IMG/VR virus record: IMGVR_UViG_3300049727_000336
Location: 1-29,743 of that record
Source of the DNA: a virus
Length of the DNA: 29,743 nucleotides
Strand: one strand, 5' to 3'
Positions 2,383-29,743 of the stretch are shown in pieces (the first letter of the stretch is position 1; the number at the start of each line of letters is the position of its first letter). The translations under genes and the position numbers were made by a program. The notes beneath the pieces were generated by a model. It made no database searches. It worked only from the letters and a program-made list of their open reading frames with translations, and was not told where the DNA came from.

Positions 2383-3285
2383 TCACGCTGCTTTGGTTGA
2401 GACCGAGAGCCCGTAGCTCTTGAGTAAGTCGCGCTCCTGGTCGGTGGGTTTCAGTTGATCGGCACTGAGCGCCGGGTAGAGAAGACAAGAACAACCGATT
2501 GTGTTTTCCGCCGAACCGTTGGGGTCGCGCGGAAATTGCAGCTCTTCGCCGCCCACAAGAAAGGGCTCGTCAGGCTTGCGTACTTGGCCATTGGCGAGAA
2601 TATGGGAAATGCGCGGCACTCTTGCCACTGGAATATGCCGCCATCCTTTACCTAAGCCAGGATGATGAGGGGCCAGATCATTTATCCGGGCCATGGAAAC
2701 CACCGACTGCAGGCGCCTGATTTCGTTAAGGGCTATTGACATAGACCGCTCGCCCACCTGGCTGAACAATCCGCTAAAGGTTCCCCCTTCAAGCGTCGAA
2801 CCTATTTGCGCGACGAGCTGCTCCAGATTGAGCCCACCCAATGCTGCGCGCTGGACCGCTGCGTTGATCTTCGCGCTCGCGTCGCGCGAGAGTCCCGAGA
2901 TGAGGTCAGCCGTATAGCCTTGCACAACCTGCAACAGGGCGCGGTCCACAACCGGCTGCACCATCAGCGTGCCTGTGCCCGCCGCCACCGTGGCGTCAAT
3001 CTGCGCGGCTGTCTGCAGAAAAGCTTTCTGCTCCAGTTCGCTGACCTGACTGCCGGCCTGGCTGGCAAACTCCGCCATCACGCGATCGATCTGCGCCTTC
3101 AGTGCCTGCAGCCGGGCGGCGTTATAGCTCGACGGCTGGCTGCGCGCCACGTCGACCAGGATCTCGCGGTTGGCCTGGTCCAGCAGCTTCAGGATGCGCA
3201 GCCGCGCCTCTGGCGTGAGCGCCTCCGCCTGCTTCGTGAGCAAGTCGAGCTGCTGAGCGTAAGCCTGTGCGCGGGAGTCAGCCAT
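2383..3285 (-). CDS. MuF-like phage head morphogenesis protein
   Basis: The 300-residue protein follows the portal gene, as Mu gpF follows gp29. Residues 1-170 are mostly helical. Residues ~190-270 carry the MuF (SPP1 gp7 family) type end: an Arg/His stretch (GWRHIPVARVPRISH), then PDEPFLVGGEELQFP and IGCSCLLYP, where the family usually has C-R-C. This family is a minor capsid protein joined to the portal. AAGGA lies 9-10 nt before the ATG, inside the end of the preceding small gene. The last ~25 residues (LKPTDQERDLLKSYG...) are also present at the end of the MuF-like protein encoded at 11833-12561. Confidence 0.78.
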   Translation of the reverse strand: MADSRAQAYAQQLDLLTKQAEALTPEARLRILKLLDQANREILVDVARSQPSSYNAARLQALKAQIDRVMAEFASQAGSQVSELEQKAFLQTAAQIDATVAAGTGTLMVQPVVDRALLQVVQGYTADLISGLSRDASAKINAAVQRAALGGLNLEQLVAQIGSTLEGGTFSGLFSQVGERSMSIALNEIRRLQSVVSMARINDLAPHHPGLGKGWRHIPVARVPRISHILANGQVRKPDEPFLVGGEELQFPRDPNGSAENTIGCSCLLYPALSADQLKPTDQERDLLKSYGLSVSTKAA

Positions 3286-13852: not shown

Positions 13853-14394
13853 GTAAAAAGCCCTCGCGCCTGGAGCAGCTCGGCTATCTACTGACCGCCA
13901 TGATTTCAATAATTGCCAGCGGGTCAAGCGACCTTCTAACAGAAAATGCACCCATACCTTCCAGAAACCCGCTTCTTGCGGAAATTGATCTGCGTGATTT
14001 TAGGCGCCACGGGAAATACTGGGGGCTGGCCGTTCGAGTAGCACAACAACTCCGGCTTAGTCATTCTCATGTGCATCGCGTTCTTTTGGGCGATTCTCAA
14101 TCGCTGCGTGTAGCCCAGGCGATCAGTGATGAGATGAAACTCATAGATAAACAAAGTGCTCCATCGCCAATTAACGCAGATGGTTTGAGTGCAGAAGAAA
14201 TATCTGAGTTTTCCCGCGGGGGAAGGTATTTCGGGCTTAAAGCCAGCGTCGCAAAACAACTCGGAATTTCTCAGAACACTGTTTGTAAGGCGGCCCGTGA
14301 TCCAAAGAACTCACGCCCCACGTATCGAGCCATCCGCGCCGAGATGGCCCGCGTGGATGCCGAGATCGCCGCGAAGAGCGGAGGCCGCAAATGA
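13849..14394 (+). CDS. Protein with two tandem HTH units
   Basis: A GTG start at 13849 overlaps the preceding stop (GTGA) and gives 181 residues. Two repeat units are visible. Residues ~50-100 hold DFRRHGKYWGLAVRVAQQL with LSHSHVHRVLLGDSQS. Residues ~118-170 hold EFSRGGRYFGLKASVAKQL with ISQNTVCKAARDPKNS. Each looks like an HTH followed by an A-x-x-x-E-M helix. The units resemble the single unit of the previous protein, so this is probably a DNA-binding protein derived from it by duplication. The gene ends in ATGA at the transposase start, so it may act with the transposase or on its binding sites. Confidence 0.68.
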   Translation: MSKKPSRLEQLGYLLTAMISIIASGSSDLLTENAPIPSRNPLLAEIDLRDFRRHGKYWGLAVRVAQQLRLSHSHVHRVLLGDSQSLRVAQAISDEMKLIDKQSAPSPINADGLSAEEISEFSRGGRYFGLKASVAKQLGISQNTVCKAARDPKNSRPTYRAIRAEMARVDAEIAAKSGGRK

Positions 14395-16505
14395 GCGCAG
14401 CCCCGCAGTTGGCCCTCGTTCCGCGCATGCCTGAGCAGTGGCTCACGGCCGACCAAGTCATGAAGCTGATGAACTGGTCTCGCGCCACATTCTACCGCCG
14501 CTCTGCCGAGCTGATCTCCCGCAATAAGCCCGATGGCCTGAATGCCCGTCCGCTCCGCGAATACCTCGCGGCCTCTCTTCCCCTGTCACCCACCCAGGCG
14601 GAGCAGACCCAGTTGACCGTGGTTGCTCCGCCTGCGGCCTCATTTGGACCACTCTTCGCCGGCATCCCGGCCACTGGAGCGCAGCGCATCATGCTCCCAG
14701 ACCCAGAAGCTCAGAAACAAGCCGAACAGCGCCTCGCCGTACTGTCGCCCCTACTTGATTACGCGGCTAACGCCGAAAGGCTCTCCTCGCTCACGCTGCC
14801 CGACGGACGCCGCGTTACCTCACTCACCAGGCTGATAGAACACATCGCCGTCACGCACGAGCCGCCTATTTCCATCCGCACCGTCAAAGATTGGCTGGCG
14901 CGCTACCGCGCAGACGGGCTGGTTGGCCTGGCCGATCGCATCCGCAGCGACAAGGGCCAGAGCCGCTGGTTTGCCCGCAACCGCGACGCCGCCATTTTGG
15001 CTGCATACCTCCATCTGGGCGACATTGACCGCCAGGGGTTAACGGCCAGTGAAAAGCCTCACCGCGGTCAAAGCATTGCCTTCATTTACGAACAGCTATG
15101 CGAGCGCGCTGAAAGCCTCGGTATTGCCGAAGGTGAACTGCCCAGCCGCGAGACAGTGCGTATCTTCCTGGCTGACTCCATCTCACCGGCCATGAAGGCT
15201 CTGGCGCGCGAAGGTAAGCGGCAGTATCGCGAGCGCATGTCGCCCTACATCCGCCGCCGTTACGACGACATCTACGCCAACCAGGTGTGGGTGGGCGATC
15301 AAATGGAGCACGATGCCGAAGTAACGAACGACGGCATCTTCGACGATGTGCCGCTGGGCACCCCGCTGCGTCTGCGGCTCGACGCCTTCGAAGACTACCG
15401 CAGCCGCAAGATAGTGGGCGCCACCTGGACGCACTTCGGCAGCTCGCGCTCCATCGCAGCCACCCTGCGCCGCGCCATCCTGCAATTCGGACCGCCGGAG
15501 ATGATCTATGTGGATAACGGCAAAGACTATAAGAAGGTTGCGAAGGGAGCGCAGCGCGGCTTCCCGGTGCAAGACCTTCGCCCCGAGGATCTTGTGCCTA
15601 TCGAGCAATGCGGTTTTCTGGCGCGCATCGGCGCGGGCGTAACGCATTGCATTCCGCGCCACCCGCAATCAAAGGGTGTAGAACGCTGCTTCGGCACGGT
15701 GCATCATTTCGATGCGTTCTTTTCGACCTACACCTCCGGCCAGACAGCCACGCGCCCCGAGGCCACCGGAGAGCTGATGATGCAACACCGCCGCCTGTTC
15801 AAGGCCGGTCGCGTTGCAGAGTCAAAGCATCCGCTGGCCAGCCGCTTCATTCTCGCCTGTCTGGCATGGATTGAGAAGTACAACAACACGCCGCATAGCG
15901 GCGAGGGGATGGACGGTCTCAGCCCGAACGAAGTCTTTGAGGCGGAGTTCAACCCTAATCAGAAACCGACTCCTGAACCTGCCACGCTGGCAATGTTGAT
16001 GGCTGAGTACGAACGCCGCGAGGTGCGCGAGTGCGCGGTGACGCTCAACAAGCGCCGCTACATGGCGCGGCCTGAAGATCGCCTCGCCTGGGCGGCCATG
16101 CATGAAGCCAATGAGCGCGAAATTCTCATAGCCTACGATCCCTGCGATCCGGAGAGTGCGGCTGCGCTCGACCTCGATGGCCGTTTCATCGCTTGGCTTG
16201 AAGCGGAAACCTTGCTCCGCTTCGCCCCTGCCGATCCGGAGACACGGCGCCAGATCGGCGAATCGATGGAAATCCGCCGCGGGCTGGAAAAAGCCACGAA
16301 GAATTCAATACGCGCCATTGCGGCTGCTGCCCGCAACAATGGCGCGCAATCGGCCGAGGAGATGGCCTACAGCCAACTGCAGCTTCCCGCTGCCACTAGT
16401 CCTGTGATCTCCCAACGTGCACCCCGGCTCCGGCCGGACAAAACAGCCGTTGCGCCGGCGAGCGCTTCGGACATCGCTGCTTCTTTTTTGGAGGGACTCA
16501 AGTGA
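14391..16505 (+). CDS. MuA-like DDE transposase
   Basis: The 704-residue product has an N-terminal winged-helix region (WLTADQVMKLMNWSRATFYRR, residues 17-37). A second HTH follows around 155-180 (SIRTVKDWLARYRADGLVGLAD). The catalytic core has Asp303 (WVGDQMEHD), Asp375 (MIYVDNGKDYK) and Glu431 (HPQSKGVERCFGT), the order and spacing of MuA/retroviral-integrase DDE enzymes. A beta-barrel-like part and a basic, Ala-rich tail follow; the tail would be where MuB contacts MuA. It joins phage ends to target DNA for integration and replicative transposition. GGAGG lies before the ATG, and stop and start overlap on both sides. Confidence 0.95.
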   Translation: MSAAPQLALVPRMPEQWLTADQVMKLMNWSRATFYRRSAELISRNKPDGLNARPLREYLAASLPLSPTQAEQTQLTVVAPPAASFGPLFAGIPATGAQRIMLPDPEAQKQAEQRLAVLSPLLDYAANAERLSSLTLPDGRRVTSLTRLIEHIAVTHEPPISIRTVKDWLARYRADGLVGLADRIRSDKGQSRWFARNRDAAILAAYLHLGDIDRQGLTASEKPHRGQSIAFIYEQLCERAESLGIAEGELPSRETVRIFLADSISPAMKALAREGKRQYRERMSPYIRRRYDDIYANQVWVGDQMEHDAEVTNDGIFDDVPLGTPLRLRLDAFEDYRSRKIVGATWTHFGSSRSIAATLRRAILQFGPPEMIYVDNGKDYKKVAKGAQRGFPVQDLRPEDLVPIEQCGFLARIGAGVTHCIPRHPQSKGVERCFGTVHHFDAFFSTYTSGQTATRPEATGELMMQHRRLFKAGRVAESKHPLASRFILACLAWIEKYNNTPHSGEGMDGLSPNEVFEAEFNPNQKPTPEPATLAMLMAEYERREVRECAVTLNKRRYMARPEDRLAWAAMHEANEREILIAYDPCDPESAAALDLDGRFIAWLEAETLLRFAPADPETRRQIGESMEIRRGLEKATKNSIRAIAAAARNNGAQSAEEMAYSQLQLPAATSPVISQRAPRLRPDKTAVAPASASDIAASFLEGLK

Positions 16506-17524
16506 ATCTATCGGGTGAAGTGAAACGCGCCTCGCTGGTGAGCGAGGAAGAAGTCAATGCAGCTTGCCGCCTGCGCATCGCAGAGTACATGTCCCGCTCC
16601 GGGCTTTCGATGCCGGACATGGCGCAGAGGATCGGCTACGGCAGCTCCACGCTGCGGCTGTTCATGGCCAACCAGTACTACAACGTAAGCCGCTCGGCCG
16701 CCGCCCTGGTGAAGGCCGCCGACGGATTCATGAACAGCTATCCCATCGCGCCGCCTACCCACATCATGGGTGACCTCTACGACACAGCCAATGTGCGCAT
16801 CATCCGCGAGACGTTTGAAAAGCTGATGCCGCGTCCGGTGGCTTACATGATTTACGCGCCGCCGGGCTCGCAGAAGTCTTTCGTCCTGGAGAACGAGGTT
16901 GCGCGCCTCAACCAGGCCGAGCTGGCAGACGGTGGCGGCCGCCGCGCTTTCTATATCTACGCCCGGCAGAACGTCCGCCCGCGCGATCTGATCCGTCGCG
17001 TGGCCATCGCCTGCGGCTCCCGGGCAAACAACGATGTGGACCCCATGCTCTCCGGCATCCGCTTCGATTTCCGGAATAACCGCGTGGTGCTGGTAGTGGA
17101 CGAAGCCCAGCATCTCTCCATCGAGTGCTTTGAGACGCTGCGCGAATTGCTCGACCAGCCGCCCTACTTCTCGCTGCTGTTCTCGGGCTCGCACGACCTC
17201 AAGCGCAAATTCGACGAGTTTTCCGCAACGCTGGAACAGTGGAACTCGCGCATCATTGCCAAGGTCCGGCTCCCCGGCCTGGAGCGCTTGGAAGCCATCG
17301 GCATCATCGAGCGCGAGATCGGCGACCTGCTCAAGGCGCGCAACCCGCGCGAAGCCAAGAGCCTGGTGGATAGGCTGATCGCCGGGGCCACGGCCCGCGA
17401 CGCTTTCGAGGGCAACCAGGCTTACATCAACGTCCGCACCCTCACCAACGCTCTGGAACAGATCAAGGCCGCCGCGCCCGATCCCGCGCCGGCAGCCATG
17501 GAGAGCGAGGAGGCAGTTGTATGA
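16502..17524 (+). CDS. MuB-like AAA ATPase, transposition target selector
   Basis: GTG start at 16502, overlapping the transposase stop (GTGA), with GGAGG upstream; 340 residues. An HTH-like N-terminus (MPDMAQRIGYGSSTLRLFMANQ, residues 37-58) precedes an AAA domain with Walker A APPGSQKS (119-126) and Walker B VVLVVDEAQHL (195-205). A sensor-type FSGSHDL follows. The same plan, HTH plus ATPase, is known for MuB, which binds target DNA as a filament and activates MuA. The P-loop has Gln124 where Gly or a similar small residue is usual, but Lys125-Ser126 are present. Confidence 0.93.
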   Translation: MNLSGEVKRASLVSEEEVNAACRLRIAEYMSRSGLSMPDMAQRIGYGSSTLRLFMANQYYNVSRSAAALVKAADGFMNSYPIAPPTHIMGDLYDTANVRIIRETFEKLMPRPVAYMIYAPPGSQKSFVLENEVARLNQAELADGGGRRAFYIYARQNVRPRDLIRRVAIACGSRANNDVDPMLSGIRFDFRNNRVVLVVDEAQHLSIECFETLRELLDQPPYFSLLFSGSHDLKRKFDEFSATLEQWNSRIIAKVRLPGLERLEAIGIIEREIGDLLKARNPREAKSLVDRLIAGATARDAFEGNQAYINVRTLTNALEQIKAAAPDPAPAAMESEEAVV

Positions 17525-24707: not shown

Positions 24708-27700
24708 ATGCGCGCCCGTCTCTTGCTTGCCCTGCCTCTCCTTGTCTGCTCTGCGCTCCATGCGCAATCGCAATACGCGGCCTTCGTCGCCAACAACATT
24801 ACCGACATGGCCGGCAATAAGCTGGCCAGCGGCACCATCACCTTCAGACCGGTGCTCACGCCCACGTCGTCGCTGCCTGCCTCTCCGCGTCTCACTGGCG
24901 GTGGCCGCGCCATCCCGCTGCCGATCACCTTCAAGGTCGTTGCCGGCGTCGCGTCGGCCACCTATGGCACCATGCAGCTTCTCGACGTGACCCAGGCCAA
25001 CCCGGCCAACTTCTGCTACGCCAGCACTATCCACGACAACAACTCCGGCGCGACCTGGAACCCGGACCCCTGCCTGCAGCCTGCGTACAACGCGAGCTGG
25101 TGCACAGTGACCGCGGGCGTGACCTCCTGCGATTACGGCCAATACCTTCCTTCCGGCACTCCCGGCGCCCTGGTCTCCTCGGGACCTCCGGGCGCTGCCG
25201 GCGCGGGTTATATCAGCGGCCTCAGTTCCAACGGAAGCAACGGCATCAACGTCGCTGGCGCCGTCGCGGCTAACACAATCGCATCCGCTTCGACATTTTC
25301 CACTTGGAACTTCGCTGCTGGCTATAATGGCGCCATCTGCGACGGAATTACCGACGATACCAACGCCTTCAACGCGCTGCTGGGCGTTGTTGCTGCTGCT
25401 GGAGGTGGAACTGTAAAGGTAATCGGTACCTGCCTTTTCAACTCTCCACAGAATCGCCCTATCATCATCCCGACAGACGGCTCAGGACTATGGGCTGTAC
25501 CTATAAACGGAACCTGCCCTATTCCTCCCCTTGTGCCAATGGATGTGATAAGCGGTGTGCCACAAGCAACCGCCGCAATTGTTGACCCCGGCTACTGCCC
25601 AGTCCCGCCGACGACGTGGAGCATTGTTGCTGTTGGCACCACGGCGCACCTTGGCACCGGCGCGTCCTTTATGGCAGGAACATGGCTCAACGGCGGATTG
25701 CAGAGCGGAACTTTCTCAGGCGGCACTGGCTATACAACAACCAACAGCAATGCTGTGAGCATATCGATTGTTGGGCTGGGGCCATCGTTTGGCGGTGGCT
25801 ATGCAGGCCTGAATGCCCATGGGCCATCGATCATGGACATCCGTACTCCAGCGCTGTTTGCTAAGATTATGGCGCTCGGCGCAAATAACTTCTCGCTAAA
25901 GAACATTTTCATCAAGGACTCTGGAACTGATTGCACTCCGTTCGTTTTGGCTACCGGAGCAAACGCTGATATTGGCGGCGTAACATTTTCAGGCACACAT
26001 GGAAATGCTAGTTCCTGTAATGAGGGAATCATCTTTGGCGGCACAATCAATGCAGCCCTGAACAGCCCAAATGGCGCCTTTCTCGGATACGGCACCACGA
26101 GAGTGGTACATAACTGGTTTGACAAAATCAGGGTCGCGGGTTGGTTTCGTGATGGTACGAATTCGATATTATGGGCCGACAACGAATACGAATCCACGTC
26201 AGGTGTACCCTCTGCGATGCCATCCTCGCCGGGATTGACCAGCGGGTTTCCGGCCTACTGCCCGATTATGAGCGATTCTACAGTTGCGCAGACTTACAAA
26301 AACCTACTGCGGGGCAACCTGTTTGAATCGGTATATGTGCCTTATGACATCTGCCAGATCGGTTCGTCGGTCAACAGCATCATCAATCAGGGCAATTCCG
26401 TCTGGGACACCCATTTAGTCGGAAATATCTTCATCGCCGAACATTTCACAAGCGGTTCATCGACTACCTATGAGTGCGATGGATGTTCCATAAACAGTGA
26501 CGGCAACCGCGCCATTGCACAGCTAACGGTCTCTGGGTCTTCACCGTCGATCACTGTCACAGGCGTAACTCTGCTCACTCCAGGAGCGGGAGCATCGACC
26601 ACCGTGAACTCGGTCATTCAGTTCATCGCTAACGGTGTCTCTTGCGGGTATGCGATAGCCACGAACACCGCGGGAGCGTTGAGTGCTCCGGTCATTCAGG
26701 TAGCAGGACCCTGCGCCACCACTCCTGTCGCCGTGGTGGTTGGTCCTAATACGGTTTACTCCAGCCACGAGATGAATCTCTACAACGGACTTGGCACAAC
26801 TACTTATCACGGGTTGGGAAACGGAACAGTATACGGATCGACGACATTTGTCGGGAATGCTCTGCCGAGCGGGGGTGCCCCAATTATAGTGAGGCCCAAT
26901 GACCCTCCAACCAGCACAAGCGCGGACTCGTTTATCATCGGCAACTCCCCCTACGACCCAACCTGCCCTGGTAATAATCTCTTCACGCAACTCTATACAG
27001 GAGCTTTAGCACTCAAGGCTTGTACTGGAGAGTCCTATGTGACCTTCACCAACAGCGGCAGCACAGATAGCTTTGTGGCTGGCTCGAATGGCAGCATCAC
27101 AGAGACAGGTCACAGTATAGACATTACTGCTGGAACCGGACTCGCCATCAACCTGCATTCACCTTTACTTGTAGTCGCTGGCAACTCGCTGAACCTGCAA
27201 AGCACGACGACTCCTCTGCTGCTAAATAGCAGTGCTGGAACAGCCGGCCAGGTTATGACTTCTGCTGGTCCTGGTGCAACTCCAACGTGGGCGGCGGCAG
27301 GTTCAGGTGTCACCCAAATCACAGGACCTTCTGGCGTTGTTACAGGGCCTACCACCTTTACCGGCAACGGAGTAACTCAGGCTGGTAGCACTTTCACTTT
27401 TGGTAGTGGTGGCTGGTTTAGTGGGCTGGTAGAGGACACTGGCTGTTGCACTGTTTCAACTAGCCTACTGGTCCCGAATGGAAACATCTACACGACATGT
27501 GTTAGTTCGACCTCCTCATATGGGGCTGTCTCCGCGACTTCACCACTGACTGCTGTATCGCTATCGGCAGCGACCAGCGGGGACTGTGCTGGATGGTATG
27601 GAGTAACTCCAGCTTACTTCTCTACTGGCCAGCCTATTCTATATTGGACGATCAACTACGTAACGAGCGCGGACTACGGAAATGACCGCATCTGGATGGG

Positions 27701-28085
27701 GTTAGCATCGCCTGAAACTGGCGGGTGCTCTTATACAGTAATCGACGCGACGGACACCCCTACAACCTGCGCTGTGGCTGCGATACGCTTCAGCACGTCT
27801 GCCTCCGACACTTATTACACCGGCGTGACCTGCAACGGCTCGGCTTGCACTTACACTCCAATTGGCGTGAGCCCGGCTACAAGTATTGTGCCAATGAGCG
27901 TGGCGATCAACTCAGGCAGTGTAACTTTCACTGTGAATGGGACCAGTGTGACCAGCACAACCACGCTGCCTCCCACAAGCGCTCTGATGTACAGCCTTTT
28001 CTTGAATACCACTCTGTCAAACACGGCGCGGTACTTGCTGCTGGGGCACATTCATGGCGTGTATCAGAGCGGTAGGGCTAACTAA
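24708..28085 (+). CDS. Exported beta-helix / tail-fibre-like protein
   Basis: The 1125-residue product has a clear Sec signal peptide (LLLALPLLVCSALHAQ, cleavage near residue 20). Next comes an appendage-like domain to ~130 (ASGTITFRP, then NPANFCYASTIHD), a short Gly/Pro collagen-like stretch (GPPGAAGAG) and a pectate-lyase-3 type start at ~207-245 (ICDGITDDTNAFNALL, AAGGGTVKVIGTCLF). A long beta-helix-like part follows. Near 850 is a tail-fibre-type segment (SAGTAGQVMTSAGPGATPTW), then a Thr/Ser-rich C-terminal domain. Phage fibres normally lack signal peptides. It may be an exported surface protein made by the lysogen, or a host protein next to the prophage. No ribosome site is seen. Confidence 0.72.
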   Translation: MRARLLLALPLLVCSALHAQSQYAAFVANNITDMAGNKLASGTITFRPVLTPTSSLPASPRLTGGGRAIPLPITFKVVAGVASATYGTMQLLDVTQANPANFCYASTIHDNNSGATWNPDPCLQPAYNASWCTVTAGVTSCDYGQYLPSGTPGALVSSGPPGAAGAGYISGLSSNGSNGINVAGAVAANTIASASTFSTWNFAAGYNGAICDGITDDTNAFNALLGVVAAAGGGTVKVIGTCLFNSPQNRPIIIPTDGSGLWAVPINGTCPIPPLVPMDVISGVPQATAAIVDPGYCPVPPTTWSIVAVGTTAHLGTGASFMAGTWLNGGLQSGTFSGGTGYTTTNSNAVSISIVGLGPSFGGGYAGLNAHGPSIMDIRTPALFAKIMALGANNFSLKNIFIKDSGTDCTPFVLATGANADIGGVTFSGTHGNASSCNEGIIFGGTINAALNSPNGAFLGYGTTRVVHNWFDKIRVAGWFRDGTNSILWADNEYESTSGVPSAMPSSPGLTSGFPAYCPIMSDSTVAQTYKNLLRGNLFESVYVPYDICQIGSSVNSIINQGNSVWDTHLVGNIFIAEHFTSGSSTTYECDGCSINSDGNRAIAQLTVSGSSPSITVTGVTLLTPGAGASTTVNSVIQFIANGVSCGYAIATNTAGALSAPVIQVAGPCATTPVAVVVGPNTVYSSHEMNLYNGLGTTTYHGLGNGTVYGSTTFVGNALPSGGAPIIVRPNDPPTSTSADSFIIGNSPYDPTCPGNNLFTQLYTGALALKACTGESYVTFTNSGSTDSFVAGSNGSITETGHSIDITAGTGLAINLHSPLLVVAGNSLNLQSTTTPLLLNSSAGTAGQVMTSAGPGATPTWAAAGSGVTQITGPSGVVTGPTTFTGNGVTQAGSTFTFGSGGWFSGLVEDTGCCTVSTSLLVPNGNIYTTCVSSTSSYGAVSATSPLTAVSLSAATSGDCAGWYGVTPAYFSTGQPILYWTINYVTSADYGNDRIWMGLASPETGGCSYTVIDATDTPTTCAVAAIRFSTSASDTYYTGVTCNGSACTYTPIGVSPATSIVPMSVAINSGSVTFTVNGTSVTSTTTLPPTSALMYSLFLNTTLSNTARYLLLGHIHGVYQSGRAN

Positions 28086-28230: not shown

Positions 28231-28434
28231 ATGAGACTAAATTTTGGCACTTTGGAGTGGTTTACGTCGTGAGACTGATGCTTCTGATCGTGCTTTGACC
28301 CTTATCATCTGCAGCGATCTGAAGTTTTCCACATCGCTGCAGATCGCGGGATGACGGTGTGAGACTCGTGAGACTGAGATTCTAGTGGTCTACCGACTGA
28401 AATAAAGGGTTTAGCGGCGCATCGGCAGTCTCAC
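28231..28434. repeat. Cluster of five TGAGACT sites, candidate transposase-binding end
   Basis: Copies lie at 28231-28238 (atgagact), 28269-28276, 28359-28366 and 28368-28375 (gtgagact), with an inverted copy at 28427-28434 (agtctcac). I saw no comparable cluster elsewhere in the window. Mu-type ends carry several copies of a transposase site, which this pattern recalls. Binding is inference. Confidence 0.5.
28307..28344. repeat. Perfect 12-bp inverted repeat
   Basis: atctgcagcgat (28307-28318) and atcgctgcagat (28333-28344) are exact inverted copies with a 14-nt spacer, inside the TGAGACT cluster. No T-run follows on either strand, so it is not a typical terminator. It may be a protein-binding site at the phage end. 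Confidence 0.65.
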
Positions 28435-28613
28435 CACCACGAGTAGTGCAGCTTAATTCCTGCATCGCTCGATGGGGTTCTCATTGTGGAAAAGCGCCTT
28501 TGACCCTCGTCAATCCCGCCGATTCCCGCGACGGACCGTTACATCCCACCAGTGCAGAGTAATTCTGGTACTCACAACCACAGCCTGGCTCATCGCCCTA
28601 AGCCGCTCCGCTC

Positions 28614-28627: not shown

Positions 28628-29743
28628 ATGCCCACAGCCGTCCGCTCGCACGCAAAGATCAACCTCGGCCTCCATATTGGAGCGCCCCGCCCCGACGGCT
28701 TCCACGCGCTGGCCACCGTCTACCAGACCCTTGCCCTTTACGACGTGGTCACCGTCGAGGCCCGTCCCGCGGCATCCACAGCTCTGCGGCTCACCTCGAA
28801 CGACACCCGCGTCCCCACCGACAGCCGCAATACCGCCTGGAAGATGGTCGCGCTGGCTCTTGAGGCCCTCGGCCTCACCGCCGATGTCGAGATCCATATT
28901 GAAAAGCGGCTCCCGGTGCAGGGCGGCCTCGGCGCCGGCTCGGCCAACGCCGTAGCCGCCCTGGTTGGCCTTGAAGCTGAACTCGGCATCACCCAAAATC
29001 CGGGTGCTCAAGAGAATCTGGGTGTCCCAGGTCCCGGGGCCCCCAGCGACAGGTCTTCGTCTCTGGGGTGTGGAGTCGTGTCTGTGACCTGGGAAGCCAA
29101 ACGCCTCCAAATCGCCGCCCAGGTCGGCTCCGATGTCCCGCTCTTCCTCATCGGAGGCACCGTCCTCGGCCTTGACCGCGGCCAGCAGGTCTCCGCTTTG
29201 CCCGACATTGAACCCCTCTGGTGCGTCGTCGCTGCGCCCGCCATCGGCGTCTCCACCCCGCAGGCTTTTCGCGATTGGGACGCCCTTTGCGCCGCCGAGG
29301 GTTTGACCGCCGAGGCCAGTACAGATAAACTAAATGAGTTGAGCCGTGTCTATGCCAGCGCCTTTGTGGGAGCGATTCCGCAGGGTGGGCAGGGAACTGG
29401 CTCCTCCGGTGTTCTCCCATTTGGAGAGAACCTGGCCGGACCACAAGAGTCCGCGCTTGTCCGCACCGGGATCAGTAGCTTGGTCGAGAACGACTTTGAA
29501 CGCGTCGTTTTTCCCCAGCATCCTCCCTTGAGCGAAATCAAGCGTCTTCTTGCGGCTTCGGGCACTCCGGAGGCAGCCCTCCTTGCCTTGCTGTCCGGGT
29601 CCGGTTCGGCTCTCTTCGGGTTGTACCAGGCCCGCGGAGATGCGGAAGCGGCTCGCGAACGTTTGCGGCCGGCCGGCGTTCGGAGCTATCTCACCCGTAC
29701 CCTGCCACGCGCTGCATATTGGCGCGAAATGCTTTTGCCATAA
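28628..29743 (+). CDS. ispE: 4-diphosphocytidyl-2-C-methyl-D-erythritol kinase
   Basis: The 371-residue enzyme phosphorylates CDP-methylerythritol in the cytoplasm, in the MEP route to isoprenoids. It belongs to the GHMP kinases. Lys10 lies in SHAKINLGLHI, the DGFHAL loop at 23-28, the ATP-binding loop PVQGGLGAGSANAVA at 96-110 and Asp169 in GSDVPLFLIGGT. The C-terminal motif is LLSGSGSALFGLY. It is about 80-90 residues longer than the usual ~285. The excess is mainly in two places: residues ~123-155, made by a palindromic DNA insert, and residues ~245-285 (GAIPQGGQGTG and on). The reading frame stays open through both, so the gene is probably functional. It is the only clear host gene in the window. 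Confidence 0.93.
   Translation: MPTAVRSHAKINLGLHIGAPRPDGFHALATVYQTLALYDVVTVEARPAASTALRLTSNDTRVPTDSRNTAWKMVALALEALGLTADVEIHIEKRLPVQGGLGAGSANAVAALVGLEAELGITQNPGAQENLGVPGPGAPSDRSSSLGCGVVSVTWEAKRLQIAAQVGSDVPLFLIGGTVLGLDRGQQVSALPDIEPLWCVVAAPAIGVSTPQAFRDWDALCAAEGLTAEASTDKLNELSRVYASAFVGAIPQGGQGTGSSGVLPFGENLAGPQESALVRTGISSLVENDFERVVFPQHPPLSEIKRLLAASGTPEAALLALLSGSGSALFGLYQARGDAEAARERLRPAGVRSYLTRTLPRAAYWREMLLP
29025..29094. repeat. Palindromic element inserted in frame in ispE
   Basis: tcccaggtc (29025-29033) and gacctggga (29086-29094) are exact 9-bp inverted ends. Inside is a second stem, ccccagcgac (29041-29050) with gtctctgggg (29059-29068), nine of ten pairs. The segment coincides with an extra Gly/Pro/Ser-rich stretch (about residues 130-155) absent from typical IspE, between LEAELGI and EAKRLQIAAQ. 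It looks like a mobile palindromic repeat that adds a peptide to the protein. Confidence 0.65.

Follow-up and report, generated by a model that had tools for sequence, protein, structure and literature searches.

A composite palindromic repeat read in frame in an IspE loop of an acidobacterial host, and related hairpins inside other protein genes

The ispE gene adjoining a Mu-like prophage very probably carries a composite mobile palindrome in frame, with a repeat of one dispersed family (F3) nested in a repeat of another (F1). The composite landed in a surface loop of the enzyme, most likely after the split from the nearest relative found, a Terracidiphilus metagenome-assembled genome (MAG; L002). 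Good evidence supports the assignment of the element, and we infer the moving enzyme from the genes that F1 flanks.

The window, that is, the whole stretch of DNA analyzed, is IMG/VR record IMGVR_UViG_3300049727_000336 (29,743 nt), a Mu-like prophage (MuA- and MuB-like proteins, portal, terminase and capsid) that reaches host ispE. Homology to relatives begins at ~28604, 24 bases 5' of the ispE start, and the host of this gene is a member of the Acidobacteriaceae. IspE of L002 is 92% identical outside the insert and pairs with the window protein on the IspE tree (99% SH-aLRT); no IspE relatives were found among viral contigs. The prophage lies at 1-28600, ends just upstream of ispE and encodes its MuA-/MuB-like transposition proteins at 14391-17521. 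A 1,125-aa open reading frame (ORF; 24708-28082, + strand) with no Pfam or PHROGs match at the thresholds used adjoins its right end, and repeated GTGAGACT motifs with an inverted repeat CTGCAGCGAT..ATCGCTGCAG near 28270-28435 may represent that end.

The first-pass annotation, made from the sequence alone, had described nested inverted repeats with 9-bp exact ends and a 9/10 inner stem, giving about 30 extra residues between the ATP loop and the GSDVP motif. The geometry was reproduced: the outer arms are complementary at 9/9 positions and the inner arms at 9/10 around an 8-nt loop, with both pairs inside the open frame of full-length ispE, between the helix that follows the ATP loop and GSDVP (Table 1). 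Compared with IspE of L002, the window protein has a net gain of 27 residues (81 nt), close to the earlier figure. Nested arm pairs of this kind occurred in one of 618 window tiles, the ispE insert itself, and in none of 20,000 Markov resamples of the insert. The annotation had, however, spoken of one palindromic repeat; its palindromic nature holds, while the insert consists of two nested DNA hairpins, each from its own dispersed repeat family (F1 outer, F3 inner).

Table 1. Features of the ispE region in the window.
Feature	Position	Strand	Basis
ispE (4-diphosphocytidyl-2-C-methyl-D-erythritol kinase), intact, 371 aa	28628..29743	+	Pfam GHMP_kinases_N/C; top PDB matches, by sequence and by fold, are IspE structures
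F1 repeat, outer hairpin, F3 in loop	29019..29096 (arms 29025-29033, 29086-29094)	+	model R2, 27.3 bits, E 9.7e-5; inverted repeat I3
F3 repeat, REP-like inner hairpin, read GAPSDRSSSLG	29034..29072 (arms 29041-29050, 29059-29068)	+	model R1, 53.2 bits, E 1.4e-10; multi-copy in relatives
IspE hot-spot loop as compared between species, window aa 116-166	28973..29125	+	variable length and repeat content, 80 ispE loci

The annotation had suggested modeling the insertion on IspE. The predicted structure (mean pLDDT 79.7) retains the IspE fold, with all best PDB matches being IspE, and places the insert between helices 103-119 and 155-166 as a loop of low confidence (pLDDT <50 at aa 133-137 and 144-149). 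These low values fit a flexible loop and may also reflect a scarcity of informative sequences. A second segment predicted at low confidence (window 29370-29490, aa 249-286, pLDDT <50) is kept as protein across relatives (GSSGVLxxGEDLAGP) and does not look repeat-derived.

Because the window's genome is represented only by the 29.7-kb record, in which no copy of the repeat other than the insert itself was found, copy numbers were taken from relatives. The proposed search for the same repeat, run with 29020-29096, returned matches in ten of ten related genomes, often dozens. F1 (consensus GGTGCCCCAGGTCTC-loop-GAGACCTGGGA) has at least 30-150 or more copies per genome in eight of ten named relatives and F3 at least 9-62 in six, all counts being lower bounds from the 150 candidates scored. 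F3 (consensus CCGGGGYCCCCAGCGACAGGTCTTCGTCGCTGGGGTGG) is a REP-like hairpin of 39-42 nt, with tandem copies mostly 42 nt apart. A sample of 60 genomes of the order contained it in 32, some of the matches being weak. Both models recover the window insert (Table 1), R1 having been built without any ispE copy and R2 from copies outside ispE. The nested F1::F3 composite is also present outside ispE at four loci (L082, L086, L092 and L093), so a single event may have brought it into ispE.

Both families are kept as hairpins. In alignments without ispE copies, 97% of the F3 cells were paired, with 14 double-change cells versus 3.3 in shuffles, and 99% of the F1 cells, with 15 versus 3.2. The shuffle control ignores relatedness; a control that preserves it, in which the pairing partner was slid by 1-3 columns, made stem pairing collapse in both families. 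Such compensatory changes indicate conservation as DNA or RNA hairpins, not as protein. A single-copy segment conserved as protein, which the annotation had named as the outcome that would speak against its reading, is thus contradicted by multi-copy families with compensated stems.

Copies inside genes are frequent. In 29 loci with strong F3 matches, picked irrespective of their genes, at least nine copies are located inside a Pfam domain, or between two, of a single open frame (RNase R, TsaD, MutS2, a two-component regulator propeller protein, GltX, a NadB-like flavoprotein, an acyltransferase/AMP-binding protein, a MiaB-like protein and NadA). F3 also occurs in GatB and, at two loci (L034 and L039), in Pth. 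In GltX and GatB, it corresponds to an exact 14-residue gap relative to solved homologues; GatB of relatives is 14 residues shorter, and the GatB at L208 has its own F3 copy a few codons away, indicating that this gene was hit twice. For F1, one clear case (penicillin amidase) and one likely case were found among 30 loci. Matches in GcpE (L147), TrbI (L168), a periplasmic-binding protein (L085) and MacB (L146) were left out of the count, as the repeat precedes the domain and could lie 5' of the gene itself. F1 matches at L143 and L153 (ALAD and helicase) were also left out, having fallen outside the tested ORF.

IspE itself is a recurrent site. In 80 relatives, the length of the segment from AVAAL to GSDV ranges between 32 and 111 residues (frameshifted L074 left out), and at least one of six repeat families was detected in the loop in 28 of the 80 species: F1, F2 (CCCACCCTTCG..CGAAGGATGGGG), F3, the tandem motifs F4 and F5, and F6. 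The 753 kb surrounding ispE contained 25 F1 matches, 12 of them within the gene. The comparison of sister species proposed earlier revealed versions with and without the segment: in L002, the loop is present and the insert absent, leaving an empty site. Loss from L002 instead of gain in the window is also compatible with the tree. Mapped onto the IspE tree, which was built without insert columns and has many weakly supported branches, the F1 label needed ten changes for ten rows, no better than shuffled labels, which points to fast turnover of inserts. With several unrelated families at one spot, a tolerant loop is likelier than a sequence target, and the data suggest that this loop collects unrelated repeats through tolerance rather than sequence targeting. 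F4 and F5 were set aside as evidence of insertion outside ispE, many of their matches being chance matches in conserved genes. Two observations concern other ispE genes: at L074 (2310-2349), the frame changes at the hot spot, where two N bases may reflect a MAG assembly gap, and Granulicella ispE (L079) has two F1 copies outside the hot spot (2646-2681 and 3132-3167).

A hint at the mode of F1 spread comes from Y1 transposase genes (PF01797), a family that includes RAYTs as well as IS200/IS605 TnpA. F1 is present on both sides of such genes at three loci, L117 and L130 (both from cultured Terracidiphilus gabretensis) and L129 (Occallatibacter savannae), the RAYT-like gene of T. gabretensis providing the hint. 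The copies are inverted around the gene at L129 (1365 +, 1982 -) and L130 (1410 +, 1950 -), while those at L117 are all on the same strand. F1 density was 11 matches in 87 kb of Y1 loci versus 13 in 753 kb outside ispE, with some of the copies belonging to the model's training set. No link to a Y1 gene was seen for F3: its single copy near one (L113) sits inside gltX and was rejected as such a link. Short (3-nt) direct repeats border nine of 56 F3 copies against 1.2 expected; this excess is inflated by tandem arrays, from which a target-site duplication, although suggestive, is inseparable. A Y1/HUH (RAYT-like) transposase, encoded by the gene that F1 flanks, would spread F1, and this or another enzyme acting on single-stranded hairpins would spread F3, with selection presumably removing most copies inside genes. 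F3 may persist there because its ~42-nt unit equals 14 codons, is often stop-free and encodes a short hydrophilic peptide that loops tolerate.

A possible though less favored account is that recombination, gene conversion or slippage, and not transposition, brought the repeats into an IspE loop already rich in repeats, which would be a sink trading copies with other parts of the genome. It would accommodate the presence of several families at one spot, including the simple tandem motifs F4 and F5 that no transposase explains, the mosaics of several families at L008 and L015, and the occurrence of F3 inside F1 at many loci. Transposition is favored over it by GltX and GatB, each with a clean F3 insertion of a single 42-nt unit where relatives lack the repeat, by the two neighboring GatB sites and by the linkage of F1 to the Y1 gene.

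The reading frame of F3 appears biased. About 17 in-gene copies were available, of which 11, including the one in the window, read G-x-P-x-D-[RG]-S-S-S-[LVP]-G, usually as the peptide GxPSDRSSSLGW, where one-sixth would be expected for any of the six frames; about three others read GSPxTG and three are reversed. All six frames are open in 36 of 56 F3 copies versus 22% of shuffles. Since the copies are related, neither figure is a clean test, and the bias could come either from selection for a peptide that is tolerated or from a preference during insertion. One may speculate, with more doubt than confidence, that F3 is a mobile hairpin selected for protein compatibility. Being 14 codons long, usually free of stops in every frame and read preferentially in one way, it would provide its own linker and so make genes a safe place to reside, and IspE and several further loops would be sites where it lands repeatedly within a bacterial family. 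That the insert is instead a selected, functional protein element, with the palindrome as a by-product, seems very improbable. The predominance of one frame would suit such an exapted loop, against which stand the lack of conservation of IspE loop sequence and length between species, the absence of the insert from the sister, the low confidence of the predicted loop and the compensatory changes in the stems.

An RNA element in the ispE message, for example one that slows translation or protects the transcript, is highly improbable. The insert is predicted to form a stable RNA fold (-41.7 kcal/mol; z -2.5, versus -1.8 as DNA), yet many close relatives lack the hairpin or have non-hairpin sequence in its place, and these hairpins recur in unrelated genes as well as in intergenic regions. 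An assembly or binning artefact can practically be dismissed: MAGs supply most ispE inserts, but inserts at the same loop come from independent projects and in-frame copies are present in contigs of isolates, in MutS2 (L166; peptide SGAPTDRSSSVGWK) and the acyltransferase/AMP-binding protein (L181) of Acidicapsa dinghuensis and the MiaB-like protein of O. savannae (L182).

The mobile composite palindrome thus favored has counterparts elsewhere. The annotation had likened the segment to Rickettsia palindromic elements, which comprise several palindromic repeat families that insert in frame in essential genes, are read as extra peptides and also occur between genes (PMC10969869; PMC3733652). The comparison is apt in behavior, as palindromes are found in frame inside many essential protein genes here too; no sequence kinship is claimed. 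The Rickettsia elements, first reported at ~150 bp versus ~42 nt for F3, belong to an unrelated phylum, and F1 is here linked to a Y1 transposase gene. Di Nocera et al. 2013 (PMC3733652) describe GTAG/CGTC REPs as 20-40-nt hairpins with many copies, dimers and tandem arrays, some of them inside ORFs, including DNA/RNA metabolism genes, where they encode 20-30 residues; the passages on in-gene cases concern phyla other than Acidobacteria. Our repeats resemble these REPs as short (20-40 nt), imperfect, high-copy palindromes with conserved hairpins within genes. Unlike them, F1 and F3 have no GTAG or CGTC tag at the stem foot, as judged by eye on alignments A1 and A2 and the F3 borders; CGTC is located in the F3 loop and stem, and GTAG is absent. 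That paper also reports the TIR-associated tyrosine transposases (TIRYTs) of Acidobacteria, in which terminal repeats flank a Y1 gene, one Koribacter TIR family also being repeated elsewhere. F1 at L129 and L130 is similarly inverted on both sides of a Y1 gene, a likeness of arrangement. No paper on in-gene palindromes in Acidobacteriaceae was found in the open-access literature; intragenic REPs are already known elsewhere, and the acidobacterial case appears undescribed in the literature searched.

These observations point to another group of bacteria whose mobile palindromes routinely end up as protein, in hosts that are free-living soil bacteria with 2-7-Mb genomes rather than reduced parasites. 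Two ideas become testable through the gain of exactly 14 residues in GltX and GatB, the frame bias and the availability of isolates such as A. dinghuensis: that repeats seed new protein segments and that a Y1 transposase moves them. For annotation, variable loops in affected enzymes should be regarded as potential repeats. Two further sets of loci were recorded. On contig 178 of one genome (G006), F3 lies in a NadB-like gene (L178) and, ~6 kb apart, in nadA (L186). A large gene resembling those of membrane proteins (~690 aa) has F2 at comparable positions at L033 (2849), L038 (1626) and L043 (3013), and F3 occurs at L030 in what seems to be the same gene, which has no Pfam match at that locus.
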